A DNA stretch of 64,000 nt, taken from the NCBI GenBank assembly GCA_017427185.1, contig JAFRTJ010000063.1, positions 1-64,000 on the forward strand, given 5' to 3'. The notes under the pieces were generated by a model. That model searched no databases. It was not told the origin of the DNA and worked only from the letters and a program-made list of their open reading frames with translations. Both the position numbers and the translations under genes were made by a program. Of this stretch, positions 47,107-64,000 are shown piece by piece. Position 1 is the first letter of the stretch, and every line of letters starts with the position of its first letter. The stretch comes from Bacteroidaceae bacterium (GTDB taxonomy: Bacteria; Bacteroidota; Bacteroidia; Bacteroidales; Bacteroidaceae).

Positions 47107-49115
47107 AAGAAAATATCAACATCTCATCTCCAGAGTTTCAAAATGCTCTCTCGCTGATCAAGTTCACTCACCAGTCTCTCTTCCTCACAGGAAAGGCAGG
47201 CACAGGGAAAAGCACTTTCTTGCGTTATATCCGATCGGAAATAAAAAAGAAAAGTGTCGTCTTGGCTCCGACTGGAATTGCAGCAATCAATGCAGAAGGA
47301 AGCACTCTGCACAGTTTTTTCAAGTTACCATTTCATCCACTCCTCTTAGATGATCCAAGATTCTCAGTCCGCCGTATCCGAGATTTTCTGAAATACAAGA
47401 AGAGTCAGATAAAACTGCTCCAAGAAGTGGATCTCATCATTATTGATGAAATTTCAATGGTAAGGGCAGATGTCATTGATTTCATTGACCGGATACTGAG
47501 AGTATATTGCCACAATATGCGGGAACCGTTTGGAGGCAAACAGCTGTTGCTGATAGGTGATGTGTTCCAGTTGGAACCAGTTGTAAAAGCTGATGAGAGA
47601 GAAATATTGAGCAAATTCTATCCCAATCCCTATTTCTTCTCGGCGCAGGTGTTCAAACAGATGAAGCTGGTCAGCATTGAACTGAAGAAAGTATTCCGCC
47701 AGAAGGATGCAGGCTTCATTGCAGCCTTGGATCATATCCGGCAAAACAAAATTACCGACTTGGAACTTAACTTGCTCAATAGCCGATACAGAGAGGATAG
47801 TGAGATTCCCAGACAAGAGGTTGAAGGGCTCAACATCGTACTAGCGACACGAAGGGACAACGTGGACTATGTCAACCAAACCGAACTGGACAAACTTCCA
47901 GGGAACACAATTCTGCTGAAAGGTGTTATCTCGGGAGATTTCCCAGAGTCATCACTCCCCACCCTGCTCCAACTCGAATTGAAAGAGAATGCACAGATCA
48001 TTTTCATCAAAAACGATCCTGATCACAGATGGGTAAATGGAACGTTAGGCACCGTCTCCAATATCAATCCAGAAAAGGAATCCATAGAAGTTATCACGGA
48101 AGATGGCGAGATTGTCAACGTAAACAAGGAACGATGGAGTAATGTGCGATATACCTACAACGAGAAGGAGAAAAAAATCGAAGAAGAGGAATTGGGAACC
48201 TTCACCCAATTCCCCATCCGACTCGCATGGGCCATTACAATCCACAAAAGTCAAGGCTTGACATTTCAGAATGTAACAATCGACTTCACAGGAGGGACCT
48301 TTGCTGGCGGACAAGCTTACGTAGCCCTGAGTCGCTGTACCAGTTTGAAAGGAATTACACTAAAGAAAAAGATTGCGCGATCCGACATCTTTGTCCGTCC
48401 CGAAATCATAGAATTTGCAGGACGATTCAATGATCAGCAAGATCTTCAGAGAGCTCTCATGACAGCAAAGGCGGACATCGAGTACCAAGCTTGTGCAAAA
48501 GCATTTGATCAGGGAGACATGGCAGCATGTCTGGAACATTTCTTCATCGCCATCCATACCCGATATGATATTGAGAAACCTACTGCCAAACGCCTGATCA
48601 GAAAGAAACTGAACATCTTCAAACATTTGCGTGAGCAGCAAGAGCAGATGAAACGGCAATTGGATGCCCAGAATGAGCGACTGCAAAAATATGCCACTGA
48701 ATATTACACGATGGGGAACGAGTGCCTGACGCAAGCTCATTCTCCCAAAGCTGCCATCGCAAATTACACCAAAGCCATAGAACTTTCTCCAACCTATGTG
48801 GATGCCCTAGTTAGGCGCGGCCTGACATATTTCGAAGAGAAACAAACGGACGAAGCATTGCATGATTTAAACCAAGCCGTCCAGCTGTCACCTCGATCCT
48901 TTAAGGCAATTTACAATCGCGGAAAAGTATTCATGGCAAAAAGATTATATGATGAGGCAGCCAGCGACTTCGTCAGAGCCACCAGCCTGAACACGGAACA
49001 TGCTCAGGCTCACAAACTTGCCGGAGATGCCTTTTCTGCCTTGGGAAAGGAAGATACAGCCGCCATATATTGGGAAATGGCCGAGCAATTGAGAGACAAA
49101 AAAAAGAGAAGATGA
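47103..49115 (+). CDS. Pif1-type helicase with C-terminal TPR domain
   Basis: A 670-residue cytoplasmic SF1B helicase. Walker A is GKAGTGKST at 30-38, the DEAD-like motif is IIDEISMVRAD, then GDVFQLEPV, and the last motifs are WAITIHKSQGLTF and YVALSRC. The helicase region ends near 440. A helical, partly coiled-coil stretch and three TPR units (about 540-670; YTKAIELSPTYVDALVRRG, DLNQAVQLSPRSFKAIYNRG) follow, which points to a protein-binding role. The combination is found in Bacteroidetes, but its job is not established. It is translationally coupled to the PBP1A gene and forms the end of the housekeeping run. Confidence 0.9.
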   Translation: MKENINISSPEFQNALSLIKFTHQSLFLTGKAGTGKSTFLRYIRSEIKKKSVVLAPTGIAAINAEGSTLHSFFKLPFHPLLLDDPRFSVRRIRDFLKYKKSQIKLLQEVDLIIIDEISMVRADVIDFIDRILRVYCHNMREPFGGKQLLLIGDVFQLEPVVKADEREILSKFYPNPYFFSAQVFKQMKLVSIELKKVFRQKDAGFIAALDHIRQNKITDLELNLLNSRYREDSEIPRQEVEGLNIVLATRRDNVDYVNQTELDKLPGNTILLKGVISGDFPESSLPTLLQLELKENAQIIFIKNDPDHRWVNGTLGTVSNINPEKESIEVITEDGEIVNVNKERWSNVRYTYNEKEKKIEEEELGTFTQFPIRLAWAITIHKSQGLTFQNVTIDFTGGTFAGGQAYVALSRCTSLKGITLKKKIARSDIFVRPEIIEFAGRFNDQQDLQRALMTAKADIEYQACAKAFDQGDMAACLEHFFIAIHTRYDIEKPTAKRLIRKKLNIFKHLREQQEQMKRQLDAQNERLQKYATEYYTMGNECLTQAHSPKAAIANYTKAIELSPTYVDALVRRGLTYFEEKQTDEALHDLNQAVQLSPRSFKAIYNRGKVFMAKRLYDEAASDFVRATSLNTEHAQAHKLAGDAFSALGKEDTAAIYWEMAEQLRDKKKRR

Positions 49116-49357
49116 ATTTTTGGAAAAATTGGACGTAATTAACACATTTTGATGAAATGAACCTGTCTTCCCGAACAGTATTCAACCATTTTTAAACCAT
49201 TTTTTGTTAATTTACCTTAAATTCCCAATTCTTGAGAAAAAAGCATACCACTTGTTTTATAAAAAAAACGTAAATTTGCTAAGTATAAAATGTACAAAGC
49301 AGCGAATTTGCAAGAACAAACAACAATTAACATAACATCAACAAAAAACTCTAATTT
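49116..49357. other. Promoter region of the FAS1/SusCD locus
   Basis: 242 bases, A/T-rich, with no gene. A -7 box lies at 49271-49278. No clear terminator for the helicase gene was seen. Confidence 0.5.
49271..49278 (+). promoter_or_regulatory. -7 box of the FAS1/SusCD locus
   Basis: TAAATTTG followed by C, 79 bases before the ATG at 49358, giving a leader of about 70 bases. The -33 element is weak. Confidence 0.55.
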
Positions 49358-52348
49358 ATGCGTATGAGAAACCGTTTAAGCAAATGGAGCAGGAAGACCA
49401 CGAAGATGGTGGCCCTGTTGGCAGCTTGCGGACTTTTGTATGCTTGCAAGGACGAGTACCTACTGGACGACGAAAAGCCCAGTTGGCTTAATTCTAGCGT
49501 ATACGAGAGTCTGCAGCAGCGCGGCAATTTCAACACGTATTTGAGATTGCTGGGTGACAAGGATGTCAATCCTGAAAACGTTCGTCCGCTTACAGACGTT
49601 TTGAGCCGTACCGGTTCCAAGACAGTTTTTGTGGCTAACGATGATGCTTGGGAGGCATTCTTCAAGAGCAACGCACAGTTGCCAGAGAAAGATCCCTGGC
49701 ACACTGCAACAAGTTACGAGAATCTGAGTGTGTCTCAAAAGAAACTTTTGATTCATACCAGTATGCTCAACAACGCTATTGTAATGGAGAATTTGGCCAG
49801 CAGCCAAGGAAGTGGCAGCAACAGGCCAGTTCGTGGAGAGTACATGCGTCGTTACACCGACGTAGAGGCAACTGATACAGTTACCTATGTTGCTCCCGCT
49901 GACCTCCCTCACAGCTACAACCCCACCGACAAAGATTTCTGGTGGAGATTCCGTGAGGAGAATGGTGGTAAAGGTATTTATGTAGTGAAAGACTCTACCT
50001 TGACCATGATGCTGCATTTCACCAGTGAGCACATGACCAAGAACACCGTAACCGATGATGACTTCGCAAAATTTATGGGTCGCGAGCGCGTAACAAGCGA
50101 CGTACATATTTATGACGCTAAGTTGATCGAGAAGGATGGTGTTTGCGAGAATGGTTATGTAAACGTAACAGAAAAACCCTTGCGTCCTTTAGCTAACATG
50201 GCAGAAGTAATTCGCAGCAATGGTAGGACAAAGATCTTCAGCCACATGCTGGATCGTTATTGTGCTCCTTATTATTGCTCAGCTATTACCAGAGCTTACA
50301 AGATCCTGCATCCTGAATTTGAGGATTCTATCTTTACCTGGAGATACTATTCCGACAACAGCTTCGGTCATCGTGCCAACAAGACTCAGCCGAACGGCAA
50401 TCCCTACACGGGTGATGATACTGGTGCCAACATCTTCTTGAAGTTCGACCCAGGATGGAACGGATACTATGACGAGTTGGGCGTACAGCAGGATATGGCT
50501 ACCATGTTCGTACCCAGCGACGAGGCTATGTGGACCTACTTCGAGAGCGGTGGTGGTTTGCAGCTCATCGAAACCTATGGTGACCCCACAATTGAGTACA
50601 ATGGTGACTACGAGAAACTTTATGAGAACATCGACCAGATTCCCATCAGTACTCTGACCAGTTTGATTAACGTAATCATGTGCCGCAGTTTCGTTGGCTC
50701 TGTTCCCAGCAAGATGACCAAGCTTCGCGACGATGCTCAGGAGCAATTGTTCTACGCTGAGGATATCGACAAGATTGACACCTGCTTGCTGGCTTGTAAT
50801 GGAGCTGTTTATATCATGGACGACATCTATGGTCCTGCAGACTACACCTCTGTTACATCACCTGCTTATATCAGTAAGACCAACCTGGTTATGAAGTGGG
50901 CTATTTATAATGGTAGTGATTCTGGTACAGACTACATGGGTTTGAACTACTATGCTTACCTGAAGGCTATGCAGAGTGAGTTCACATTCTTCCTCCCCAG
51001 TGACCAGGCTTTGAATTATTATTACGATCCTACTTCTTTCAAAAGTACTCAAAAACGTTTGATCCAATTCTCTTACAAAAACCAAGCATTCCCCATCGTA
51101 ACAAGATGTATCAACTACAATCCCACAACGGGTGAGATTGGCCGTGCGTTTACGGGTGCTGGTGCATCTATCTCACAAAGTGAGACTACCAACCGTCTGA
51201 AGGATATGTTGGAGAGCCACACTATCGTACACGATGGCACCAATCCAATCCACGGCGAGGATGTATATTTCTTGACAAAGAATGGTTCTGCAGTAAAGGT
51301 TGAACGTGACGAGAATGGTTCTGTCATCAACGTAAAGGGTGGTTTCCAGTTGGAGAACGAGAGAGAAGGCATCTTCTCTGAAGAACCAGGTGTAGACATC
51401 TGTAACGTGACAAAGCCTTTCGACAATTTGAAGAATGGACAGACCTACATTCTGGATGCTCCCATTATTCCTACCAGCCGAAGCGTCTACAGCATCCTGA
51501 CTCAAGAAGAAGGATGGAGCGAGGTCGGCGAAGAGCAGTGGGAAGAGGAATGCCCCTATTCCGAGTTCTACAAATTGTGTGAGACCAATGATGAAATCGT
51601 TAGAGCATGCGGTTTGGTTGACGAGACCAACCTCAGCACTTCCGAGCAGCGTTCCGCACAAAAGAAGTTTGACATTTTCGTAGCAGGTGACCAATATAAT
51701 AAGATGTATGGTCTCGACTATGACGTGCAATTCTTCAACAACTACCGCTATACATTGTTTGTACCCACAAACGAAGCTATCAAGAATGCTATTGCTGCCG
51801 GTCTTCCTACTTGGGAGGATATTGAGGCAGACTATGAGAGCTGTGCAAAAGACAGCGTATCTGACGAGTTGATTAACTCCGAGGATAGTATTCGTCTTCA
51901 GGCAAAGATCACGTACCTTGTTAATTTTGTACGCTACCATTTCGCCGACAACTCTGTATTCGCCGACAACAGTGTACTGGCAGAGAATGAAATGGTAACC
52001 TCAAGTTACGACAAGGAACTGGGCCTCTTCTGCAAGGTACATGTTGACCGCATCAAGGAAGGTGGCGAGACCATTTTGCGTGTACGCGATGATAATGGAG
52101 GTAACATGATGAACATCATCGGCGAGAAGAACATTCTGGCTCGTGATGTTGTATGTTCTGATACTCCTATCAATCAGCCTATGTCAACCAGTAGCCGTAG
52201 AATTACCCTGGATGCTTCCAGTTCGGCTGTAATTCACCAGATCGGTGGTATTCTGAACCACACAGAGTTGGTGAATGGCCGTCATGATAGCACATGGGCA
52301 AGCACGGCGTCAGCTAAGAAATACTTAAAGAGATACGCTATTCAATAA
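49358..52348 (+). CDS. Multi-domain FAS1 (fasciclin) surface lipoprotein, first copy
   Basis: A 996-residue predicted lipoprotein (lipobox LLYAC, signal from the MVALLAACG stretch). At least three, perhaps four, FAS1-like units can be read from their recurring cores: TVFVANDDAWEAFF (about 90), ATMFVPSDEAMWTYF (about 385), FTFFLPSDQALNYYY (about 545) and YTLFVPTNEAIKNAI (about 803). FAS1 domains mediate adhesion or binding. Its place directly before a SusC/SusD pair (11 bases to susC) suggests that it works with them on the cell surface, perhaps as a SusE/F-like binding protein or an extracellular lid, but the ligand is unknown. Codon use is strongly biased, as in highly expressed genes. Confidence 0.83.
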   Translation: MRMRNRLSKWSRKTTKMVALLAACGLLYACKDEYLLDDEKPSWLNSSVYESLQQRGNFNTYLRLLGDKDVNPENVRPLTDVLSRTGSKTVFVANDDAWEAFFKSNAQLPEKDPWHTATSYENLSVSQKKLLIHTSMLNNAIVMENLASSQGSGSNRPVRGEYMRRYTDVEATDTVTYVAPADLPHSYNPTDKDFWWRFREENGGKGIYVVKDSTLTMMLHFTSEHMTKNTVTDDDFAKFMGRERVTSDVHIYDAKLIEKDGVCENGYVNVTEKPLRPLANMAEVIRSNGRTKIFSHMLDRYCAPYYCSAITRAYKILHPEFEDSIFTWRYYSDNSFGHRANKTQPNGNPYTGDDTGANIFLKFDPGWNGYYDELGVQQDMATMFVPSDEAMWTYFESGGGLQLIETYGDPTIEYNGDYEKLYENIDQIPISTLTSLINVIMCRSFVGSVPSKMTKLRDDAQEQLFYAEDIDKIDTCLLACNGAVYIMDDIYGPADYTSVTSPAYISKTNLVMKWAIYNGSDSGTDYMGLNYYAYLKAMQSEFTFFLPSDQALNYYYDPTSFKSTQKRLIQFSYKNQAFPIVTRCINYNPTTGEIGRAFTGAGASISQSETTNRLKDMLESHTIVHDGTNPIHGEDVYFLTKNGSAVKVERDENGSVINVKGGFQLENEREGIFSEEPGVDICNVTKPFDNLKNGQTYILDAPIIPTSRSVYSILTQEEGWSEVGEEQWEEECPYSEFYKLCETNDEIVRACGLVDETNLSTSEQRSAQKKFDIFVAGDQYNKMYGLDYDVQFFNNYRYTLFVPTNEAIKNAIAAGLPTWEDIEADYESCAKDSVSDELINSEDSIRLQAKITYLVNFVRYHFADNSVFADNSVLAENEMVTSSYDKELGLFCKVHVDRIKEGGETILRVRDDNGGNMMNIIGEKNILARDVVCSDTPINQPMSTSSRRITLDASSSAVIHQIGGILNHTELVNGRHDSTWASTASAKKYLKRYAIQ

Positions 52349-52359
52349 TATTTCCTACC

Positions 52360-55300
52360 ATGAACAAGATTATTAAGCTTTTACTGCTTTGGGTTGTTGC
52401 CGCTATGGCACTCCCCGTGAGCGCTCAGCAACGGCGTATCTCCGGTACCGTATCGGATGATATTGACGTCATCATTGGCGCCAACGTCGTAGAAAAGGAT
52501 AAGAATAACCGTATTGTCAGCCAGACCATCACGGATATGAATGGTAATTTCACCATGAATATCAAGGATCCAAACAATACGTTGGAAATTTCTTATATCG
52601 GTTATAAAAAATTCTCTCAGAAACTGTCAGGCAAGACAGTCTACAAGGTTACCTTGCAGGACAACACCAAAACCATCAAGGAAGTAACCGTACAGGGTAA
52701 GAAGAATGCTCCCACCACAGGTCTGGAGATTCCTGCCCGCGAGTATGCAGGTGCTGTCCAGAAGTTCAGCATGGACGATGTGGAAGGTTTAGCATTCGAG
52801 TCCGTTGACCAGGCTCTGCAAGGACAGATCGCAGGTTTGGATATCGTGCCCAACTCTGGTAACCTGGGTTCCGGTACTACCATGCGTCTGCGTGGTACCA
52901 GCACAATTAACGGTAATGCTCAGCCTCTGATCGTTGTTAATGACCACATCTTCGAATTGCCTGAAGATGCTCAGGACATCAACTTCGAGACAATGGATAA
53001 CGAGGAGCAGTTCTCTACCCTGCTGAACGTGAACCCCGAGGACATCGAGAGTATCACCGTTCTGAAGGATGCTGCAACTGCTGCCAAGTGGGGTATCAGA
53101 GGTTCAAACGGTGTAATCGAAATCAAGTTGCGCCGTGGTCACCGTGGTCCCACCAACGTTGTCTTCAACTACAAGTTCAGCGGCACATGGCAGCCCGATG
53201 GTTACAAGATGCTCAATGGTGACGGTTATACCATGATGTTGAAGGAAGCTTACTTCAATCCTCACCAGAGACACATCAGCCTCCCCGAGTTGGACTACAA
53301 CCAAGAATTGCCCTACATCTACAACCACTTCAGCCACAACACTGATTGGGTTGACGCTGTAAAGCAGTTCGGTAAGGAGCACAAGTACTACATCACAATG
53401 TCTGGTGGTGGTGAGAAAGCAACCTTCCGAATCAGTGCCGGTTACGACATGAGCTCCGGTTCTATCATTGGCCAGCATCTCGATCGTTTCACCACAGCTA
53501 CCGCTTTGGACTATTGGGTAAGTGACCGTATCAAGTTCAGTTCAAACATCAACTTGACCTTCACTACTAATAAAAAGAATTATGGTAACGACATCCTGGC
53601 CCGTGCTTACAAGGCAATGCCCAACATGAGCATCTACGAGTTCGATGCACAGGGTAATCCTACCGGTGACTACTTCAACATGCTGCCTCTCGCAGCCAAC
53701 TACGGTACCTCAAGTTCCTCTTCCAAGAACAACGATGGAACCATGACTTCCTACAACCTGAACGACATGTTCTTCAACGGCAACCCTGTTGCACGTGCAA
53801 TGAAGGCTTGGAACAAGGAGAAGCAATACAACCTGACTCCTCAGTTCAGCGTAGAGTACAAGTTGCTGGGTAAGGACGATGAGCACCATCGTTTGAACTA
53901 CGTAGGTGATGTTCAGTTGGATATCTTCAACACCAGTAGCGATGAGTATGCTCCCAGCGAGCTGAAGACCATGGCCTGGGTTTGGGGTGGCGACCATGCA
54001 ACCAACCTCGGCAGCAACGAGCGTAACTACGTATCTAATTCCGAGTACAAGTCACTCCAGTTCTCTACTCGTCATGACTTGCGCTACTATTCAGCATTTG
54101 CCAACAAGGATCACAGCCTGAGCGGTTTGGCTCGATTCGAGATGACCAGTGGTACCAGTAGCCACCAATCATTAGGTTTGTGGAACGTACCCGACGGCAT
54201 CACCGATCCTACCGTAGTAGCCCTGCTGCGTGCAGCAAGTGCCACAAACAACGAATGGCGCAGCCAGAGTTTCTTCGAGCAGGTACACTACTCTTACAAG
54301 AGCAAGTATTCATTGGACGCTTCTCTGCGTACTGATGGTAGCACCAGTTTCGGTAAGGGTCACAAGTACGGAACCTTCCCCTCTGTCGGTGGACGTTGGA
54401 ATATCAGCGACGAAAACTTCATGCAGTGGAGCAAACCCGTCATCAGCATGTTGGCCTTCCGTCCCACATGGGGTATCACGGGTAACACCGGTGGTGGTGG
54501 TTACAACCAATACAACAAGTATGCTACAGCCGGCTACTACAATGGCCACACTGTTGTACAGCCCGAGAACCTTTCTCTGACAGAGATTCGTTGGGAGAAG
54601 ACAAAGCAGTGGAACCTCGGTTTCAACCTGGGTATGTTCGACGACCTGTTCAACGTAGAGTTTGAGGTTTACAACAAGAAGACCACAGACCTGCTGATGG
54701 ACAACCTCCGCATCCCCAGCGCCAACGGTTTCAGCTATCTGAGCAAGGTTAACGCCGGTACCCTGCGCAACAAGGGTTGGGAGTTGAACGCCAGCACAGC
54801 TAAGATCTGCAAGGTGGGCAAATTCTCCATGAAGCTGCGTGGCAACATCGCACAGAACTTCAACGAGGTTGAGGAGATGAATCCTCTGATTCTCGAGGCT
54901 CTGAACGGTAGCGACACCTATCAGCCTGAAAACCTGAAATACAACCAGCGTGTACAGATTGGCAACGCCTTGGGTTCCATCTACGGTCTGCGCTACTTGG
55001 GTGTTTACAGGTACGACTACGACCACAACGGCTACACCACAGCCTCCATCGCTTCTTACGGCTATGCAGAGTCTGGTACTACAGGTTACGCCGCTAACTC
55101 AGATGGTAGCATCAACTACAACGAGCCCATCAACACAGCTGCAGCTGCAGCCCGCCGTGGTGAAGTCAACACCTGCCCCATCGCTTACGATGCTGATGGC
55201 AACATGCTGACCGACGCAAAGGGTATTCCTTTGCCAATGTACTACTGCTACAACGAGAGCTATCGCTATCAGTTCCAGGGTGGTGACGCCATCTACGAGG

Positions 55301-55860
55301 ATGTCAACCACGATGGTCAGATCGACCGCTACGATATGGTTTATCTGGGCAACTCTAACCCCAAGTGCAATGGTGGTTTCGGTTTCCAACTCTTCTACGA
55401 GAAATTCTCTTTGAACACAGGTTTCAACTTCCGTATGGGTAACAAGATTGTGAACTTGGCTCGTATGAACTACGAGAGCATGTTGAACAACAACAACCAG
55501 AGTTTTGCTACCACATGGCGTTGGCGTAAGAATGGCGACGAGACAGTTATTCCACGTGCATTGAGCAACGTGAATGGCTACAACAGCTACAACTCTCTGC
55601 CCAGCGACCGCTACGTTGAGGATGGTAACTATCTGCGTTTGCAGTACGTTCAGTTGAGTTACGACTTCGATGCCAAGAAACTGAAGAAGTATGGTATCCG
55701 CAACCTGAAGCTGTTCGCATCTCTGAACAACCTTTGGGTATGGACCAAGTACACCGGTGTTGACCCCGATGTATCTCCTCAGGGATTCGCAGTTTGTACG
55801 GATAACAGCCGTACTCCTCGTACGAAGTCATTCACATGTAGTATTAACCTTGGCTTCTAA
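52360..55860 (+). CDS. SusC/RagA-family TonB-dependent transporter, first copy
   Basis: A 1166-residue outer-membrane transporter. Signal peptide (about 1-22), then a carboxypeptidase-D-like domain (25-105; RISGTVSDDIDVIIGANVVE), a plug (about 125-250; QALQGQIAGLDIVPNSGN, MRLRGTSTINGNAQPLIVV, TVLKDAATAAKWGIRGSNGV) and a 22-strand barrel to the C-terminus (KSFTCSINLGF). SusC proteins import glycans or peptides with a SusD lid using TonB energy. It sits between the FAS1 gene and the susD gene with 11-base gaps. The imported substrate is not evident, since no enzyme or regulator gene is next to it in the window. Confidence 0.94.
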   Translation: MNKIIKLLLLWVVAAMALPVSAQQRRISGTVSDDIDVIIGANVVEKDKNNRIVSQTITDMNGNFTMNIKDPNNTLEISYIGYKKFSQKLSGKTVYKVTLQDNTKTIKEVTVQGKKNAPTTGLEIPAREYAGAVQKFSMDDVEGLAFESVDQALQGQIAGLDIVPNSGNLGSGTTMRLRGTSTINGNAQPLIVVNDHIFELPEDAQDINFETMDNEEQFSTLLNVNPEDIESITVLKDAATAAKWGIRGSNGVIEIKLRRGHRGPTNVVFNYKFSGTWQPDGYKMLNGDGYTMMLKEAYFNPHQRHISLPELDYNQELPYIYNHFSHNTDWVDAVKQFGKEHKYYITMSGGGEKATFRISAGYDMSSGSIIGQHLDRFTTATALDYWVSDRIKFSSNINLTFTTNKKNYGNDILARAYKAMPNMSIYEFDAQGNPTGDYFNMLPLAANYGTSSSSSKNNDGTMTSYNLNDMFFNGNPVARAMKAWNKEKQYNLTPQFSVEYKLLGKDDEHHRLNYVGDVQLDIFNTSSDEYAPSELKTMAWVWGGDHATNLGSNERNYVSNSEYKSLQFSTRHDLRYYSAFANKDHSLSGLARFEMTSGTSSHQSLGLWNVPDGITDPTVVALLRAASATNNEWRSQSFFEQVHYSYKSKYSLDASLRTDGSTSFGKGHKYGTFPSVGGRWNISDENFMQWSKPVISMLAFRPTWGITGNTGGGGYNQYNKYATAGYYNGHTVVQPENLSLTEIRWEKTKQWNLGFNLGMFDDLFNVEFEVYNKKTTDLLMDNLRIPSANGFSYLSKVNAGTLRNKGWELNASTAKICKVGKFSMKLRGNIAQNFNEVEEMNPLILEALNGSDTYQPENLKYNQRVQIGNALGSIYGLRYLGVYRYDYDHNGYTTASIASYGYAESGTTGYAANSDGSINYNEPINTAAAAARRGEVNTCPIAYDADGNMLTDAKGIPLPMYYCYNESYRYQFQGGDAIYEDVNHDGQIDRYDMVYLGNSNPKCNGGFGFQLFYEKFSLNTGFNFRMGNKIVNLARMNYESMLNNNNQSFATTWRWRKNGDETVIPRALSNVNGYNSYNSLPSDRYVEDGNYLRLQYVQLSYDFDAKKLKKYGIRNLKLFASLNNLWVWTKYTGVDPDVSPQGFAVCTDNSRTPRTKSFTCSINLGF

Positions 55861-55871
55861 AACTGGATACA

Positions 55872-57755
55872 ATGAAAATAAAGAATTTATATAAATCAGC
55901 CTGCCTGTTAGGCTTGATAGCCTTAGGCACTACCTCTTGCGAGGATTGGTTGACACTGTACCCCCAGGATCGTGTAGTAGAAGAGAACTTCTGGGAAGAC
56001 AAGAACGACTTGGAGGGTGTGCGCTATGCTGCATACAAGTCCATGTGCGGTACCATAAGGAACTTCGCAGTCTGGGGTGATTTGAGATCAGATACCTATG
56101 TGCTGAATCCCGTCGACCACAGCGACCAGGGATCACGTGACACCTACGACGAGATCATGAAGGCTATGCCCGACTCCAGCATGACCATATTTGACTGGAG
56201 CGGTGTGTATACTACTATTAATTATTGTAATAAGGTACTCCAGCATGGCGCCGAAGTATTGGAGAAAGACAAGCAGTTCACCACTTCCGAGTGGTTGCAG
56301 ATGCGTGCCGAGATCACCGGTCTCCGCGCCCTGAACTATTTCTATCTGCTTCGCGCCTTCAAGGATATACCTTATACAACTAAGGTGATCAACAAGGATG
56401 TGGAAGTTGAAACCTTCGGTCTGACGAACCAGTTGGACGTGCTCGACTCCATCATCCTGGATGTTGAGAAGGTAAAGGGCCAGGCCCGCAACCGCTTCAC
56501 CAACCCCTACGACACCAAAGGTCTGATTACCAACAGTGCCCTGTACGCAATGCTGGCAGACATGTACCTGTGGCGTGCTTCTCTCCACGAAGGCCGTGGC
56601 CTTGCTGAGGACACCATTGCTACAGATACGGGACTGGTGGCACACTCTGTAAGAGGTGACTACCAACTGGCTGTAGACTATGCAGACCAGGCATTGTATG
56701 CCCTGAATTACCAGAGCGAGCAAAGCAACCAGAACTATGGTACCCAGATTGCCATGAAGCAGAACTATGGTCTAACCTACTGCGACATGATCAGCAACCG
56801 TTTCGAGGAGCAGAACCTGGTTACTGGTGGATATGCAACTCTCTATGCACAGAATAGGATTTTCAATTCCGGCAACAGCGACGAGAGCATCTTCGAGATT
56901 CAGTTCAGCGGTAGTGACAACCGCAAGAATCCCGCAGTTCATCACCTCTATGGCTACTCCAACGGTACCCACCTGGCAGTCAGCGATTATGCCATCTCTG
57001 CTTGCTACAACGGTAACGCAGACGCCATGAAGTACGACAGCCGCCTTTGGGTAAGCTACCAGAACCAGATGAGAGGCGAGAGCGCTACCCTGCAGGGCTA
57101 CTACTGCTTGAAGTACAAGTATCCTGATATCCGCATCAGCGAGGACAGCCAGAAGCAAATCTCTGCTGAGATAGTGAGCAGCTCCGACTACGTCAACTGG
57201 ATCATCTATCGTATGACAGGCGTCATGCTGATCAAGGCCGAAGCATTGGCTTGCTTGGGTGGTGCCGACAACAACAAGAAATGCCAGCAAATCGTCAATG
57301 CCATCCACCGTCGCTCCTACTGCGACCTGAAGAACGGCAACGTTCCTGACACAGACGTGACCTCAACCTCTTCCAACACCGTCGGCAATGCAGTCAGCAT
57401 GGGTTCCGACTACGTGAAGCTGGTAATGAACGAGCGTCAGATTGAGTTGTTGGGCGAAGGTCAGCGCTGGTTCGACCTGGTTCGTTTCGCAGAGCGCAAG
57501 GCAGGTGGTATGAATGGTACCGTCGACGAGCGCGAGTGGACCGAAGAGCAGCCCATTGGTAGCGGTTTCGCAGGTGTGACACTGATGGTAGACACCTACC
57601 TGAAGAACACCTACAGCAGCCTCTACACAACCCTGAAGAATCGTATGAAGAACCGTTACGGTCTCTACTGCCCCATCTACTACATGGAGGTTAAGGCCAG
57701 CAATGGTGAGATTCAACAGAACCCTGTTTGGAATAAATCTAAGTATGATAACTAG
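55872..57755 (+). CDS. RagB/SusD-family surface lipoprotein, first copy
   Basis: A 627-residue lipoprotein (lipobox GTTSC, then EDWLTLYPQDRVVEENFW, the typical SusD start). The helical TPR-type scaffold and substrate loops follow; RALNYFYLLRAFKDIPYTT near 155-175 and the late NERQIELLGEGQRWFDLVRF are hallmark segments. It caps the SusC barrel encoded 11 bases upstream. Length and arrangement are normal. A small hairpin (57767-57786) lies behind its stop. Confidence 0.94.
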   Translation: MKIKNLYKSACLLGLIALGTTSCEDWLTLYPQDRVVEENFWEDKNDLEGVRYAAYKSMCGTIRNFAVWGDLRSDTYVLNPVDHSDQGSRDTYDEIMKAMPDSSMTIFDWSGVYTTINYCNKVLQHGAEVLEKDKQFTTSEWLQMRAEITGLRALNYFYLLRAFKDIPYTTKVINKDVEVETFGLTNQLDVLDSIILDVEKVKGQARNRFTNPYDTKGLITNSALYAMLADMYLWRASLHEGRGLAEDTIATDTGLVAHSVRGDYQLAVDYADQALYALNYQSEQSNQNYGTQIAMKQNYGLTYCDMISNRFEEQNLVTGGYATLYAQNRIFNSGNSDESIFEIQFSGSDNRKNPAVHHLYGYSNGTHLAVSDYAISACYNGNADAMKYDSRLWVSYQNQMRGESATLQGYYCLKYKYPDIRISEDSQKQISAEIVSSSDYVNWIIYRMTGVMLIKAEALACLGGADNNKKCQQIVNAIHRRSYCDLKNGNVPDTDVTSTSSNTVGNAVSMGSDYVKLVMNERQIELLGEGQRWFDLVRFAERKAGGMNGTVDEREWTEEQPIGSGFAGVTLMVDTYLKNTYSSLYTTLKNRMKNRYGLYCPIYYMEVKASNGEIQQNPVWNKSKYDN

Positions 57756-57766
57756 TCTGTAAATTT

Positions 57767-57786
57767 ACCTGGGGAGTCTGCCAGGT
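57767..57786 (+). promoter_or_regulatory. Small intercistronic hairpin
   Basis: ACCTGG (57767-57772) pairs with CCAGGT (57781-57786) around an 8-base loop, with no T-run. It sits in the 96-base gap between susD and the second FAS1 gene and could tune mRNA stability or partial termination. Confidence 0.3.
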
Positions 57787-57851
57787 CCCAACAACCGGAA
57801 GCAGGTTCCCAATAGGAAAGAAAAAGATTAGATAAATAAAATACAAAAACA

Positions 57852-59768
57852 ATGGCTAAACATAAAATAAACAAGTATATCGGAGCATTCGCACTGGGAG
57901 CTGTCATCATGGCAATCCCCAGTTGCTCTGACACCTGGGATTCTCACTACGGAACCGTTAATGAGGAGAGTGAGATAGCAACCCAGACTTTGTGGGAGCA
58001 AATCCAAAGCAATCCCAATTTGAGCCGTTTTGCTACCATTGCTCAGAGGGCCAAGTACTACAGGGATGAGACTCACCCCATAGCAACTTATACTTTCGCA
58101 GACATTCTGAAGAGCAATCGGGTCACCACCGTATGGGCACCCGAGAACGACTGCTTCACCGATGCCGAGTATAACACATGGCTCGAGAGATGTGAGACAG
58201 ACGGCTATAACGTACAGCAGCAATTGCTGGGCAACCACATTGCTCTCTGGCGTCACGTGCTCAGTGGCGACAGTATTGACACACTGAAGATGATCAACAG
58301 CAAGAACCTGATCTTCGACCGCAAGGCCAGAACTCTTCAGGGACGTCCCATTCATCTTGCCAACATCAAGGCAACGAACGGTACATTGCATACGATTACT
58401 GGCGGCACGACACCCTTCGACTGGAACTTCTACGAGTACATCAAGTTTGCCGGCACGCTGCCCGTCTTCCGCGACTACATCCTGAGCAAGGATACCACCT
58501 ACTTCGTTCCAGGCTCTTCTATCGAAGGCTTGCCCGACGAGAACGGTAACCCCACGTATGTCGACAGCGTTTACTACACCTCTAACCAGCTGTTCCGCTC
58601 CAGGTCTTATCTGCCCCCCAACAATTCCGATCTCTGGATGATGGCAGACGAAGGCTTCGGCGCAAATCTGGAAGCAGAGGACTCCATGTTCATCATGCTC
58701 CTTCCCACCGATGCCGCTTGGGCAGAGGCAAAGGAGAAGTTGTCGCAGTACTACATTTACTCTCCCATCTATTCCGACAAGCAGAAGGGTAACAACAACT
58801 CGCCCAACCAGACCGAGGAAGGCGATCCCGACTCTCTGCAGAAGATGAGCCTCGAGATGGATTTGATCTCACCCCTGGTGTTCAACATCCACAAGCAGCC
58901 CAAGATCGGCGGCCAGAAGACAGGTACTCCCTGGACCATGGAATATTTCATAGAGACCAAGGGTGCCGAGGCAGAATACCTGCTCAACACGTACGGAGAC
59001 ACCCTCCGCGCAACCGACCTGTGGGACCAGACAACTCTCTTCAACGGAAAGGTGTTTGAGATGAGTAATGGCTACGGATACGAGATCGAGCACTGGAACT
59101 TCCCCAGCCACTTCTACAAACCCGACGTAGAGGTTGAGATGACAGGTAGCGTATTCTACAACTACGCCAACAACTACACAGGTACTGCCAGAAGACAGAC
59201 CTTCAGCAACGCAGCCTACGCAGATGTTGTAGCACAGCATGGTAAGGTCAGCCGCAACGACTTCTACGTAATGGGTCCTCAGGGAACCGGTACGAACCCC
59301 AAGGGTGAAGTCAAGCTGAGGGGTAACTTCAACGAGGCTTACGTGCCCGATGCAGAAGTTATGAGTGGAACCTACGACCTCTATCTGGTCATGGTACCCT
59401 ACTATTACATCCAGATCGCTGGTGGTGACACCCTGATCACAGACACCTTGGCCAACAAGATCAACCTGCAGATCAGCTACAACAATGGTGTTGCCCGCGA
59501 CGCAACTTCCAACCGTGTAACGGTAACCTACGATGGTGTAAACGTTGATACATTGCTGTGTATCCCCGATTTCACCTTCCCCTACTCTTACAAGAACCTG
59601 CGTCACAGCTATCCCACTCTGATCATCCAGGGTGCTCCCACGTCTTCGGAAATCCGTTCCGGTAAATATACACGTACCTTGTGTATCGACCGTATCATCC
59701 TGAGGAGCAAGGAGAACCAGTCAACCATAGAAATCGACCCTAATGACACAGCAGACAATGAAAACTAG
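57852..59768 (+). CDS. FAS1 (fasciclin) surface lipoprotein, second copy
   Basis: A 638-residue predicted lipoprotein (lipobox MAIPSC, Cys near residue 24). Two FAS1-like cores are visible: VTTVWAPENDCFTDAEYN (about 93) and MFIMLLPTDAAWAEAKEKL (about 280). The last 200 residues are beta-rich (EVEMTGSVFYNYANNYTG, KINLQISYNN) and end in a sandwich-like domain with CIDRIILRSKE. It differs from the first copy in length and order, so it is a diverged paralogue. Its stop lies within the following susC gene (59758-59768), so the two are coupled. Confidence 0.83.
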   Translation: MAKHKINKYIGAFALGAVIMAIPSCSDTWDSHYGTVNEESEIATQTLWEQIQSNPNLSRFATIAQRAKYYRDETHPIATYTFADILKSNRVTTVWAPENDCFTDAEYNTWLERCETDGYNVQQQLLGNHIALWRHVLSGDSIDTLKMINSKNLIFDRKARTLQGRPIHLANIKATNGTLHTITGGTTPFDWNFYEYIKFAGTLPVFRDYILSKDTTYFVPGSSIEGLPDENGNPTYVDSVYYTSNQLFRSRSYLPPNNSDLWMMADEGFGANLEAEDSMFIMLLPTDAAWAEAKEKLSQYYIYSPIYSDKQKGNNNSPNQTEEGDPDSLQKMSLEMDLISPLVFNIHKQPKIGGQKTGTPWTMEYFIETKGAEAEYLLNTYGDTLRATDLWDQTTLFNGKVFEMSNGYGYEIEHWNFPSHFYKPDVEVEMTGSVFYNYANNYTGTARRQTFSNAAYADVVAQHGKVSRNDFYVMGPQGTGTNPKGEVKLRGNFNEAYVPDAEVMSGTYDLYLVMVPYYYIQIAGGDTLITDTLANKINLQISYNNGVARDATSNRVTVTYDGVNVDTLLCIPDFTFPYSYKNLRHSYPTLIIQGAPTSSEIRSGKYTRTLCIDRIILRSKENQSTIEIDPNDTADNEN

Positions 59769-62700
59769 AATCAGCAATATATTCATGCGCAAGACCTTCT
59801 GTACAGGTCTGTGCTTCATGGTGCTTTCCGGCTTTAGCATCACCAATGCGGTGGCTCAAGACGTGGAAGAAGAAGACTACGAAGAAGAAGTTGCCGTACG
59901 CCGCATTCCGAAGAAGAAAACGGAAAAGCAATATGAGATGAAGACCGTCAAGGGCGTCATCATCGACGATGCCACTGGCGAGCCTATGGGTGGTGTTCGT
60001 GTACAAGCCCTCAGCCTGGAGGCTTATTCCACTCTGACCGAGGAGGATGGTACCTACACCCTGGATATCCCCACCTTCTCAGACGTTCTCTACGTTTACG
60101 CTGAAGGCTACAATCCCTTGCAGATCGCTGTAAAGGAAGGCAAGGCAGACGGTAAGTTGATGACGACTCATTTCAGCCCTTACTATCAGGACGGAACGAC
60201 CATCACCTCTACCCGTACGGCTACGATTAACGAGAGCTCAAGTGTAGGTATCGAGACCGATATCCAGAACCTGCTCTCAGGTGATATCCATACCATCAGC
60301 CGCAGCGGCATTCCCGGTATGGGTGCTTACATGACCATCCGTGGTGTGAACTCAATCAACGCCAACGCCCAGCCTCTGATCATCCTGGACGGCAACATGA
60401 TTGACCCACAGTATGACCGCACTACTCTGCACGAGGGTTTCTACAATGACCTGCTGACTGCATTGGATCCCGAGACCATCGAGAGCGTACAGGTTCTCAA
60501 GAACGGTACCGCACTCTATGGCGCAAAGGGTGGCAACGGTGTGATCATCATCAACACCAAGCGTGGCAAGAGCATGGCTACCAAGATCGGTGTCCGCATC
60601 TTCGGTGGTGTCGAACTGACCCCCAAGAAGCTGGATGTCATGAACGGCGACCAGTACACCCTCTATCTCAATGATATGGTTAGTACCATCAAGAACATGA
60701 ACGTCAGCTCTCTGAGCAGCTATCGTTTCCTCGACAAGAGTCCCGGCAACTATTACCGCAACGTGTACAACAACAACACCGACTGGCAGAAGGACATGTA
60801 CGACAATGCATTCACCCAGAACTACAAGATCAACGTAGAGGGTGGTGATGACATCGGTATGTATGCCCTGTCACTGGGTTACACCAAGAGCGAGAGCACA
60901 GGTGTCGGAACCGACATGAACCGCTTGAACCTGCGCTTCAACACCGACATCAAGGTGTTCAGCAAGGTGACTACAGGTTTGGATATTGCCTACAACCAGA
61001 CAAGCTACAATATCCTCGACACCGGATGGAGCGAGAACTACGACATGCAGAACGTTGGTTCCACCAATGTGCTGGGTCTTATCCAGGCTCCCTTCATCAG
61101 CCCCTACTCTTACTATTACGACGAGTTCTCCACAGCTCCCCTCTCACCAGACCGTCTGGCTCTCTCCAAGGAGTATGCCGGTAAGTATGCCGCATCCACC
61201 TACAACTGGGTTCAGAATCCCTTCTGCTTCTCCAGCGACTTGGGTATCAACGAGGCTCAGCGCAATCCCTACTGGATTCTCGAGAATGGCAAGGGAAGCA
61301 ACAAGAACTATGCTCAGCTGACTCAGATTCACCTAAACGTGAGTCCCAAGTACCAGATCAACAAGAATCTGTACATCAGCGACCGCTTCAACTTCACCAT
61401 GACCCGTAACAACGAGAAGTACTTCCTCCCCATCAATGGTACCACCCCGTACTATCTGACCGACCTCGGAAGCATCACTTCTGTACTGAAGACCCAGTTC
61501 GCTAAGGAGACCACCATGAACAATGACCTGCAGATCGGTTGGGGCAACAACTATGGTGCCCACACCATCAAGGCATACGGTGGCTGGCGTTACAACAACT
61601 ACTCATACAGCTTCAACTACATGAGAGGTTACAACAACGAGAACGATAAGCTGCCCAACCTGAGCAAGGATATGCAGTACATCAACTACGGCGGTACCAA
61701 CGACAACTGGATCGACATGGCATACTACGTAGATGCCAACTACAACTACAAGAACCGCTACTTCGCAGACTTCACCGTCAGCAGCCAGGCAGGCAGCCGT
61801 TTCGGCGACGACACCAAGGATGGTTTCCAACTGGGTGGCGTAAGCTGGGGCGTATTCCCCTCTCTGCAACTCGGTTGGTTGATCAGCAGCGAGAACTGGT
61901 TCAAGCTCAAGGGTATCGACTATCTGAAGCTGACCGCCGGTGTTGACCAGAGCGGTAACGATGACCTCGACTACTATGCAGCCCGTACCTATTGGGAAAG
62001 CCAGCAGGTAACAGAGAACACCGTAGGTCTGTATCTGAAGAACATCGAGAACAGTACCATCCAGTGGGAGACCACTACCAAGTACAACATCGCTCTCGAG
62101 GGTAACTTCCTCAACAACCGCCTCTATGCCGGTGTCGACCTCTTCTGGCACAAGACAGACAATCTGCTGACCGTGAAGGATCTGAGCTACATCTCCGGTA
62201 TGACCAACTACTGGACCAACGAAGGCCAGTTGAAGAACAAAGGTTTCGAGTTCCACGCAAACGCAGCTCTCATCAACAAGAAGAACTGGCACTGGGAACT
62301 CGGTGCAAGCCTGGGTCACTACAACAACAAGCTCACCAAGCTGCCTCAGACCATCGACAACACCATCAAGTTCTACACCATCAATGCTGACGGTACCCAG
62401 AGTGCAAGTCCCTACACCACTCTCAACGGCTACACATCCAGCATCTACGGAAAGGACAACGTGCTGACCGCTGTCGGTTATGCAGTAGGCAGTTTCTACG
62501 GATGGCAGACAAAGGGCATCTTCGCCAACGAGGCAGAAGCCAGCAAGGCTGGTGCTCTGGGTTACCTGAAGTATCCCACCGGACTGGCTGAGGATCCCTA
62601 CCGCAACTTCCAGAGTGGCGACGTTCACTTCGTAGACCAGAATGGCGACGGCGTGATTGACGATTCCGACAAGGTAGTCATCGGCAATCCCAACCCCGAC

Positions 62701-63192
62701 ATCTATGGCAACATCTTCACGGCTCTCACCTGGAAAGACCTCCGTCTGGACGTCAACTTCAAATACTCGCTGGGCAACGACATCTACAACTATCAGCGCA
62801 GTATCCTCGAGGGTGCCAACACCACCTACAACCAGACCACAGCCGTATTGCGTCGCTGGACCTACGATGGCCAGAAGACCGATATGCCAAAGGCATGCTA
62901 CACCAACAGCGACGACTGGCGCAACAACGAGCGCATGTCTGACCGCTGGATCGAGGACGGCAGCTACCTGAAGCTGAAGAACGTACGCTTGACCTACACT
63001 GTTCCCTACCGCAACGACTGGTTGCAGGGCTTGAAGTTCTGGGGCGAGGCCAACAACCTTGTCACCCTGACCAAGTACTTGGGCACAGATCCTGAAATGA
63101 GCAGCAAGAACAGTCCTCTCTACCAGGGAATCGACAATGGTTTGCTGCCCTACGGCCGCAGCTTCAACATAGGTGTTTCTATCAACTTGTAA
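59758..63192 (+). CDS. SusC/RagA-family TonB-dependent transporter, second copy
   Basis: A 1144-residue outer-membrane transporter. A signal region (MKTRISNIFMRKTFCTGLCF) is followed by an acidic/basic linker (DVEEEDYEEEV, IPKKKTEKQ), a carboxypeptidase-like domain (about 63-135; KGVIIDDATGEPMGGVRV), the plug (ESSSVGIETDIQNLLSGD, MTIRGVNSINANAQPLIIL, ESVQVLKNGTALYGAKGG) and the barrel to the end (GRSFNIGVSINL). The start at 59758 is chosen because it overlaps the FAS1 stop; ATGs at 59743 and 59785 are alternatives. The extra linker after the signal distinguishes it from the first copy. Confidence 0.93.
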   Translation: MKTRISNIFMRKTFCTGLCFMVLSGFSITNAVAQDVEEEDYEEEVAVRRIPKKKTEKQYEMKTVKGVIIDDATGEPMGGVRVQALSLEAYSTLTEEDGTYTLDIPTFSDVLYVYAEGYNPLQIAVKEGKADGKLMTTHFSPYYQDGTTITSTRTATINESSSVGIETDIQNLLSGDIHTISRSGIPGMGAYMTIRGVNSINANAQPLIILDGNMIDPQYDRTTLHEGFYNDLLTALDPETIESVQVLKNGTALYGAKGGNGVIIINTKRGKSMATKIGVRIFGGVELTPKKLDVMNGDQYTLYLNDMVSTIKNMNVSSLSSYRFLDKSPGNYYRNVYNNNTDWQKDMYDNAFTQNYKINVEGGDDIGMYALSLGYTKSESTGVGTDMNRLNLRFNTDIKVFSKVTTGLDIAYNQTSYNILDTGWSENYDMQNVGSTNVLGLIQAPFISPYSYYYDEFSTAPLSPDRLALSKEYAGKYAASTYNWVQNPFCFSSDLGINEAQRNPYWILENGKGSNKNYAQLTQIHLNVSPKYQINKNLYISDRFNFTMTRNNEKYFLPINGTTPYYLTDLGSITSVLKTQFAKETTMNNDLQIGWGNNYGAHTIKAYGGWRYNNYSYSFNYMRGYNNENDKLPNLSKDMQYINYGGTNDNWIDMAYYVDANYNYKNRYFADFTVSSQAGSRFGDDTKDGFQLGGVSWGVFPSLQLGWLISSENWFKLKGIDYLKLTAGVDQSGNDDLDYYAARTYWESQQVTENTVGLYLKNIENSTIQWETTTKYNIALEGNFLNNRLYAGVDLFWHKTDNLLTVKDLSYISGMTNYWTNEGQLKNKGFEFHANAALINKKNWHWELGASLGHYNNKLTKLPQTIDNTIKFYTINADGTQSASPYTTLNGYTSSIYGKDNVLTAVGYAVGSFYGWQTKGIFANEAEASKAGALGYLKYPTGLAEDPYRNFQSGDVHFVDQNGDGVIDDSDKVVIGNPNPDIYGNIFTALTWKDLRLDVNFKYSLGNDIYNYQRSILEGANTTYNQTTAVLRRWTYDGQKTDMPKACYTNSDDWRNNERMSDRWIEDGSYLKLKNVRLTYTVPYRNDWLQGLKFWGEANNLVTLTKYLGTDPEMSSKNSPLYQGIDNGLLPYGRSFNIGVSINL

Positions 63193-63216
63193 AAAAACAT
63201 AAAGATATACACGGAT

Positions 63217-64000
63217 ATGAAAAGAAAATCCATTATCAGTCTGCTTATCTTCAGCATGGGTCTCGGCATGATGACCACTTCATGCGAGGATATGCTGTCA
63301 CCCGACAGCGAGCGCCATTCCTACACCGTGGCCCAGGATACCCTCTACTCCTACTGGGGAATCCTGAAGTCACTGCAGAATGTGGCCGAGCGCTACGTCA
63401 TCCTGGGTGAGTGCCGTGCGGATCTGGTCGGCGGCACAAGCTTCGTCAGCGATACCATCAACGCTATCCTGAACTTCGGACAGAACGGTTATGCTGAGAA
63501 AATCAAAGATGGTAGCTGCCGCTATCTCAAGGCAAGCGACTATTACCACATCATCAACAGTTGCAACAGCTACATCGCACGCTGCGACACCATCCGCACC
63601 ACAGGTACCCTCCAGCCCTACATGCTGAAGGAGTACGCACAGGTGGAAGCCATTCGTGCATGGACCTATCTGCAGTTGGTACAGGTCTACGGCAAGGTTC
63701 CCTTCTATCTGGAGCCTATGCTTACCACCGACGATATCAATGCATTCATGAACGATCCCAACCATCCGACTGTCACTACCGAAAATCTGGTTGACAAGCT
63801 GGGCGAGCGCCTGGAGGCAATGTGCAGGGTAGAGAAGATCTACGGTTATCCTCAATACGAGAACTATGGTAGAACACGTACCGTATGCCACAGCACCAAG
63901 TGCATGTTCCCCACCTATCTGGTATTGGGCGACCTCTATCTTGCCAAGGGCGACCCCGCTTCTTGCGCAAAGGCAGCACAGTGCTACTATGACTACATCA
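63217..64000 (+). CDS. RagB/SusD-family surface lipoprotein, second copy, cut by window end
   Basis: The frame opens at ATG 63217 and stays open to the last base, so 261 codons of the N-terminal part are seen. The signal peptide (MKRKSIISLLIFSMGLGMM) ends in the lipobox TTSC, followed by EDMLSPDSERHS. The SusD signature EAIRAWTYLQLVQVYGKVPF appears near residues 147-166, and a TPR-like LVLGDLYLAKGDPAS near the end. It lies 24 bases behind the second susC. The remainder lies beyond the window. Confidence 0.9.
   Translation, partial: MKRKSIISLLIFSMGLGMMTTSCEDMLSPDSERHSYTVAQDTLYSYWGILKSLQNVAERYVILGECRADLVGGTSFVSDTINAILNFGQNGYAEKIKDGSCRYLKASDYYHIINSCNSYIARCDTIRTTGTLQPYMLKEYAQVEAIRAWTYLQLVQVYGKVPFYLEPMLTTDDINAFMNDPNHPTVTTENLVDKLGERLEAMCRVEKIYGYPQYENYGRTRTVCHSTKCMFPTYLVLGDLYLAKGDPASCAKAAQCYYDYI

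Follow-up and report, generated by a model that had tools for sequence, protein, structure and literature searches.

A conserved operon combining two SusCD pairs with FAS1-domain lipoproteins, a candidate outer-membrane import machine of Bacteroidaceae

The 64,000-nucleotide window analyzed here (positions 1 to 64,000 of contig JAFRTJ010000063.1 in the Bacteroidaceae assembly GCA_017427185.1; below, G000 is this genome and C24 this contig, other G-numbers are genomes and L-numbers fetched stretches) carries at positions 49358-63999 on the + strand six open reading frames (ORFs) in the order FAS1a-SusCa-SusDa-FAS1b-SusCb-SusDb. They form an operon that interleaves two TonB-dependent SusC transporters and two SusD lipoproteins with lipoproteins bearing fasciclin (FAS1) domains. 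Judging from the genes, we hold it somewhat probable that the operon encodes a single SusCD-type machine for import across the outer membrane, vertically inherited and with oligosaccharides as its likeliest cargo. SusCD systems are usually pictured with each glycan locus having a transporter pair of its own; this conserved operon departs from that picture in joining two SusCDs with three FAS1 lipoproteins, of which the window species has lost one from the operon. It is accordingly a natural place to ask how gut Bacteroidales poor in polysaccharide utilization loci (PULs) feed, and it suggests for FAS1 domains a part in nutrient uptake that can be put to the test.

FAS1a (49358..52348) is a 996-aa lipoprotein with its lipid-bearing Cys at position 30 and a Pfam Fasciclin match (E 2.3e-12, 47.6 bits) that recurs in 16 of its 17 aligned orthologues; motifs at positions 89, 382, 543 and 798, picked by eye after reading the sequences, suggest that it probably comprises four FAS1 units. 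The TonB-dependent transporter SusCa (52360..55860, 1166 aa; TIGR04056, 662.9 bits) has a carboxypeptidase-like domain at its N-terminus in addition to the plug, and is followed by SusDa (55872..57755), a SusD-family lipoprotein of 627 aa (PF07980, 1.4e-21, 77.8 bits; PF14322, 1e-12). FAS1b (57852..59768, 638 aa, lipid Cys25) has a Fasciclin match of 25.2 bits (E 2e-5), and a profile search matched it to TGFBI/periostin at 2.6e-12 in two stretches; on hand-picked motifs it probably consists of two FAS1 units and a C-terminal domain. The second transporter, SusCb (59743..63192, 1149 aa; TIGR04056, 552.3 bits), starts 26 bp before the end of FAS1b. SusDb, another SusD-family lipoprotein, is cut by the window edge (63217..64000); its full 756 aa, which end at base 65487 of C24 (the whole gene is also L013:3218-5488), are matched by PF07980 at E 2.6e-10 and 40.9 bits. 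Both SusCs thus exceed the 368-bit cut-off of TIGR04056 and contain the Plug domain PF07715, as expected of the SusC/RagA family, and both SusDs exceed the PF07980 cut-off and adjoin a SusC, as expected of SusD/RagB lipoproteins. FAS1a and FAS1b are likewise above the 22-bit Pfam cut-off for Fasciclin, as is the third lipoprotein, FAS1c, of L132 at 45.2 bits.

The original prediction, made from the window's letters alone, had seen here two complete, closely packed and diverged FAS1-SusC-SusD sets with multi-domain FAS1 proteins. All six frames are as it described, except that SusDb is complete only past the window edge, and the packing is confirmed by gaps of 11, 11, 96, -26 and 24 bp between successive genes, with 242 bp separating FAS1a from the gene before it. 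The multi-domain claim finds support in the hand-picked motifs (four and two units) and the two profile-matched stretches of FAS1b; Pfam, however, makes a single call in each protein. Divergence is evident throughout: SusCa and SusCb are 26% identical over 568 aa, SusDa and SusDb 23% over 259 aa, and BLASTP gives no significant match between FAS1a and FAS1b. By these sequence comparisons the two gene sets are old paralogues. A recent tandem duplication, also considered, is ruled out because the identity between the sets is so low.

The case for a single inherited unit comes from the relatives. FAS1b was matched in 110 of the 121 genomes of the genus, and 20 genus loci were fetched, chosen from FAS1b-matching genomes and mostly from those with long flanks. 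The order SusCa-SusDa-FAS1b-SusCb-SusDb is kept in all 20 (SusDb being broken into two ORFs in L058), and FAS1a precedes this core in 19, falling outside the fetched stretch in the twentieth. Since the order is kept in 20/20 loci, the linkage of FAS1 with SusCD is not due to chance. Between SusDa and FAS1b, at the site of the 96-bp gap of the window (57756..57851), 15 of the 20 loci have FAS1c, as one gene in 11 loci and two in 4, each of ~700-760 aa. Closer inspection of some of the in-operon FAS1c proteins showed lipoproteins whose FAS1 domain is N-terminal, with a motif C-x-E-x-(V/I)-D-x-S following the lipid Cys and a conserved end KE(V/I)(Y/F)DNPxxxED(I/V)W. An FAS1c profile, scored on the best ~4 candidates per genome, matched 169 of 251 genomes in a family-wide sample, spanning 16 of 30 genera. 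Around such matches in other genera, 12 of 17 fetched stretches, from seven genera, contain the complete FAS1a-SusCa-SusDa-FAS1c-FAS1b-SusCb-SusDb series, and the remaining five have FAS1c alone or in tandem.

Because the seven-gene form is present in other genera and in most genus loci, it most likely represents the ancestral state, from which the six-gene operon of the window would derive. The idea of tandem modules therefore stands for the gene order, whereas the unit is most likely one seven-gene operon. No remnant of FAS1c was found on translating the three forward frames of the 96-bp gap. On the tree of core SusCb, in-operon FAS1c is absent from 6 of 21 genomes through two losses, and all six fall in a nine-genome clade with expanded dispersed FAS1c. 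Taking a strong match to FAS1b or SusCa as a sign of the core, it is present in 101 of 111 FAS1c-positive genomes and in none of the 10 FAS1c-negative ones. A divergent version of the operon occurs in three stretches of the same genus (G031:C4, G112:C3 and G096:C7; L144-L146), two of which end before SusDb; its SusC is ~43-46% identical to SusCa and it coexists with the main operon in G096. FAS1c was not found in G031 and G112 at E 1e-60. We read the operon as part of the core equipment, passed on by vertical descent, in contrast to PULs that vary from strain to strain.

Outside the operon, FAS1c has multiplied. The window genome has 19 near-full-length matches, 18 of them distinct (contigs C59 and C67 carry an identical sequence) and none in the operon, several of them next to genes for glycosidases or for giant, probably exported proteins; the copy at C40:26297 has a stop codon. 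These proteins of ~700 aa (loci L014-L022 and L075-L084, e.g. L018:8992-11106 and L022:10008-12149) display a SARYVF-type motif at the N-terminus and a nearly invariant C-terminal tail, and share 35-51% identity with the five in-operon copies used for comparison. On a phylogeny of 101 FAS1c proteins, the dispersed state requires 8 changes as against 28.5 for shuffled labels, and 54 dispersed copies of the genus group in one clade (support 94), next to in-operon copies from G113, G077 and G067 plus one dispersed copy. Such paralogues probably stand in for the lost in-operon FAS1c of the window species. No FAS1c was found on viral contigs, and invertible promoters, sought as 14-bp inverted repeats, lie upstream of 0/65 FAS1c genes compared to 4/346 other genes; a Bacteroides-type promoter pattern precedes 16/65 and 59/346, respectively. 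Clusters of FAS1a-like and FAS1c-like genes were also seen at L112:4749-9294 (G065) and at L127:3959-8338 and upstream of it (G106), the latter with an added FAS1b-like gene; neither gene chain has an adjoining SusC or SusD. On contig C41 of G079, a pair of FAS1c genes has a partial SusC nearby, at the end of the contig.

This multiplication raises an alternative, which we regard as unlikely, wherein the operon would be a shared importer and FAS1c, having left it and expanded (~18 copies in the window genome), would furnish exchangeable adaptors, each accompanied by local glycosidases or giant exported proteins, that bring different polymers to it and serve glycan loci devoid of their own SusCD. 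If true, a hub-and-spoke arrangement would replace the one-locus-one-transporter design of PULs. The ~18 distinct FAS1c in a genome with four SusCs speak for it, as does the fact that the dispersed copies are of one family with the FAS1c of the operon and, in the genus, mostly form one clade next to operon copies of G077, G067 and G113; part of their neighborhood speaks for it too. We read 66 FAS1c ORFs in 58 stretches (including fragments, one gene read twice, in L016 and L075, and one in two halves, in L077), and for 52 of them another gene on the same strand lies no more than 250 bp away. Pfam recognized among 53 immediate neighbors GH127 (twice), GH92, GH43, GH97, GH20, Melibiase, CotH (four times) and laminin-G (five times), together with RNA polymerase, CbiC and RmlD; by a crude predictor, 38/53 of them look exported as against 68/130 distant genes (p=0.02). 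Fifteen distinct neighbors are at least 1300 aa long, 12 of which are related to another by BLAST. NCBIfam assigned no family to the five of these giants scanned, and the tail that ends several of them resembles a sorting signal of the type IX secretion system (T9SS), which no NCBIfam model confirmed. One FAS1c group retains its giant partner in five genomes (L017:9807-14708, L108, L117, L123 and L095), as a gene of ~1620-1720 aa directly upstream of the orthologous FAS1c; these giants are probably exported, and those of L017, L108 and L117 have no NCBIfam match. In L014, L017 and L078, the stretch that separates the giant gene from FAS1c contains inverted repeats, recognized by eye as hairpins and possibly terminators or mRNA stabilizers.

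Against the adaptor idea, most partners are not conserved: a homologous neighbor is common to 13 of 57 reciprocal-best FAS1c pairs as opposed to 65 of 1379 other pairs, such that the link is real for some copies and absent for most. Several copies sit among housekeeping genes (L079, L081; L129, L131, L138), and no strongly variable ligand region is conspicuous in FAS1c. The gene counts are similarly unhelpful to it. Those across the 121 genus genomes, in which the best ~9 or best ~6 candidates were scored, are lower bounds; full or nearly full counts come from 16 genomes, each at least 90% complete. In these, FAS1c, SusC and GH43 number, respectively, 20, 4 and 19 in G000 (FAS1c including one fragment); 11, 5 and 10 in G065; 2, 8 and 21 in G109; 1, 9 and 24 in G043; 3, 14 and 20 in G096; 1, 12 and 24 in G016; 8, 5 and 14 in G067; 8, 5 and 12 in G077; 20, 6 and 21 in G079; 8, 3 and 15 in G085; 7, 8 and 12 in G113; 8, 3 and 18 in G106; 7, 4 and 12 in G032; 1, 8 and 11 in G066; 0, 2 and 16 in G031; and 0, 3 and 19 in G112. 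The inverse relation of FAS1c to SusC among the 14 FAS1c-bearing genomes (rho -0.68, p 0.008) vanishes over all 16 (rho -0.14, p 0.59). In the 121-genome set, fewer than six SusCs were counted in 29/43 genomes with at least five FAS1c, in 18/68 with one to four and in 8/10 with none. Moreover, the genomes with few SusCs and many FAS1c form one clade on the core SusCb tree, and their state is therefore a single evolutionary event rather than independent evidence.

The same counts bear on the role of the operon itself. By profile the window genome has four SusCs and four SusDs, two of each in the operon; both SusCs of G031 belong to the divergent operon, and in several genomes the operon supplies half to all SusC proteins. 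Since some close relatives have most or all of their SusC-type pumps in it, the operon may be the main food gate rather than a specialized one. In G000, G031, G112, G085 and G106, two to four SusCs stand beside 15-19 GH43 matches. As to the cargo, SusDb is followed in 12 of the 20 relatives by a GH2 β-galactosidase as the first gene to reach 100 aa, recognized by similarity to the L024 gene and confirmed by Pfam for two of the 12; in eight of them, which form one clade, it runs in the direction of the operon. In G065, a thirteenth relative, it lies one gene further downstream. L024 itself, with an FAS1b 95% identical to that of the window, has the GH2 gene directly after the operon. Given genomes rich in glycoside hydrolases and poor in SusC, and this GH2 neighbor, the cargo is most likely oligosaccharides released by enzymes encoded elsewhere. 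The original prediction was right that no glycosidase, sigma factor or sensor adjoins the operon in the window, where a GH43 gene (C24:34081-34899) lies ~14 kb upstream. Its further suggestion, that the nutrient may not be a glycan, rested on the missing glycosidase and is weakened by the GH2 gene of the relatives and by the GH43-rich genomes with few or no other SusCs.

Peptide cargo is less likely, and an importer resembling RagAB, with FAS1 domains that bind protein ligands and peptides or glycopeptides as cargo in place of sugars, is a doubtful but arguable reading. None of the loci read has an enzyme gene within the operon, and the solved relatives of both SusCs include RagA (SusCa 1.3e-35, SusCb 1.4e-45). 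In the scanned members of the clade with GH2 in the operon's direction (e.g. L152:3716-9000), the operon and GH2 gene are followed by DUF6057, a PD40 gene and a further gene, which in L167 is of the DPPIV peptidase type. However, the best solved match of both SusCs is the dextran utilisome structure 8AA4 (SusCa 1.4e-92, SusCb 1.9e-71), bearing in mind that overall similarity does not define cargo, and the enzyme adjoining the operon in relatives is a β-galactosidase.

In the SusCD family, TonB drives import beneath the SusD lid. Extending this to the import machine we favor, a pair of distinct SusC barrels, each covered by a SusD lid, would import oligomers at the expense of TonB energy, and the FAS1 lipoproteins might take the places of the extra lipoproteins that dock at SusC loops in utilisomes. 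The analysis shows the gene content and order, their conservation, the copy numbers and the FAS1c phylogeny; complex formation, transport, cargo and the stand-in by paralogues are the steps that we infer. Several observations weigh against it. FAS1 domains are known chiefly for their role in adhesion. AlphaFold2 yielded unusable models of FAS1a and FAS1b (predicted local distance difference test, pLDDT, 28.2 and 27.6, from three near-identical sequences each), and the GH43 counts are a proxy for all carbohydrate-active enzymes (CAZymes). In 4 of the 12 cases in which it adjoins the operon, the GH2 gene is convergent and not co-transcribed; it was not found nearby in 7 of the 20 relatives, nor seen on the contig of the window. 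Ten FAS1c-positive genomes have no detected core, perhaps on account of being incomplete, as all ten are metagenome-assembled and 62-89% complete.

A third alternative, improbable in our estimate, takes the FAS1 lipoproteins for adhesion or matrix proteins whose only tie to two ordinary SusCD pairs is co-expression. Their solved relatives include the adhesion proteins periostin and TGFBI, and dispersed FAS1c adjoin giant, probably surface-exposed proteins; yet a fixed seven-gene order in at least eight genera, with FAS1 genes interleaved among those for SusCD, exceeds what co-expression needs. Finally, the GH2 gene downstream in relatives might recall an ordinary PUL stripped, in this species, of its enzymes or regulator, a reading largely refuted, and very improbable, because the operon is widely conserved with no sigma/anti-sigma, hybrid sensor or enzyme gene inside any of the 20 genus and 12 other-genus operons, just as the window operon has no CAZyme within it and no sigma/anti-sigma, hybrid two-component or SusR-type gene beside it.

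Among known systems, RagAB, a peptide importer, is similar in having a SusCD-type transporter and an operon without glycosidases, and differs from the present operon with its two SusCD pairs, FAS1 lipoproteins and SusCs nearer in sequence to the dextran SusC. Periostin and TGFBI share FAS1 domains by profile match; here, in contrast, these domains belong to bacterial lipoproteins with further domains, encoded in a SusCD operon. In the dextran and levan utilisomes of Bacteroides thetaiotaomicron, extra lipoproteins dock on the SusC loops (PMC7618045). The present operon resembles them in its SusCD core with additional predicted surface lipoproteins, and differs in having FAS1 lipoproteins where utilisomes have a glycan-binding protein and a glycoside hydrolase, two different SusCD pairs and no enzyme inside (PMC7618045). 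'Candidatus Paraporphyromonas polyenzymogenes', a rumen member of Bacteroidales reliant on a T9SS, has a genome reported to be devoid of PULs (PMC5831590). The likeness lies in saccharolytic organisms whose CAZymes are not organized around SusCD; unlike in that species, a conserved FAS1-SusCD operon remains here. The text of that report does not mention fasciclin or FAS1. In the open-access PMC literature (subscription papers and preprints lying outside this scope) we found no description of the operon and no paper combining 'FAS1 domain' with SusCD, and the part of PMC10199937 available, which matches fasciclin, SusC and SusD, describes no such operon. The notion of a poorly described surface uptake operon is hence upheld, given how strongly FAS1 is linked to SusCD in the 20 genus and 12 other-genus loci; an absence of this linkage elsewhere, which the original prediction had named as counting against itself, was not what the relatives showed.

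An Rfam scan of the window gave no match, and in positions 49050-64000 predicted promoters were at the shuffled mean and terminators below it. Upstream of the operon lie miaA, a PBP1A-type gene and a Pif1-type helicase gene, of which MiaA and Pif1 recur in L055, Pif1 in L134, and PBP1A in L060 and L132. Past position 64000, as the original prediction had proposed to look, there is no further module: SusDb is followed by two convergent genes, one for an 840-aa protein without a Pfam match and one of phage Rha/KilAC type, before the contig ends at 68811. These two genes (L013:5632-8778), the first with a long Ser/Asn/Pro-rich repeat, occupy the position where L024 has GH2, and likely mark an insertion at this post-operon spot.

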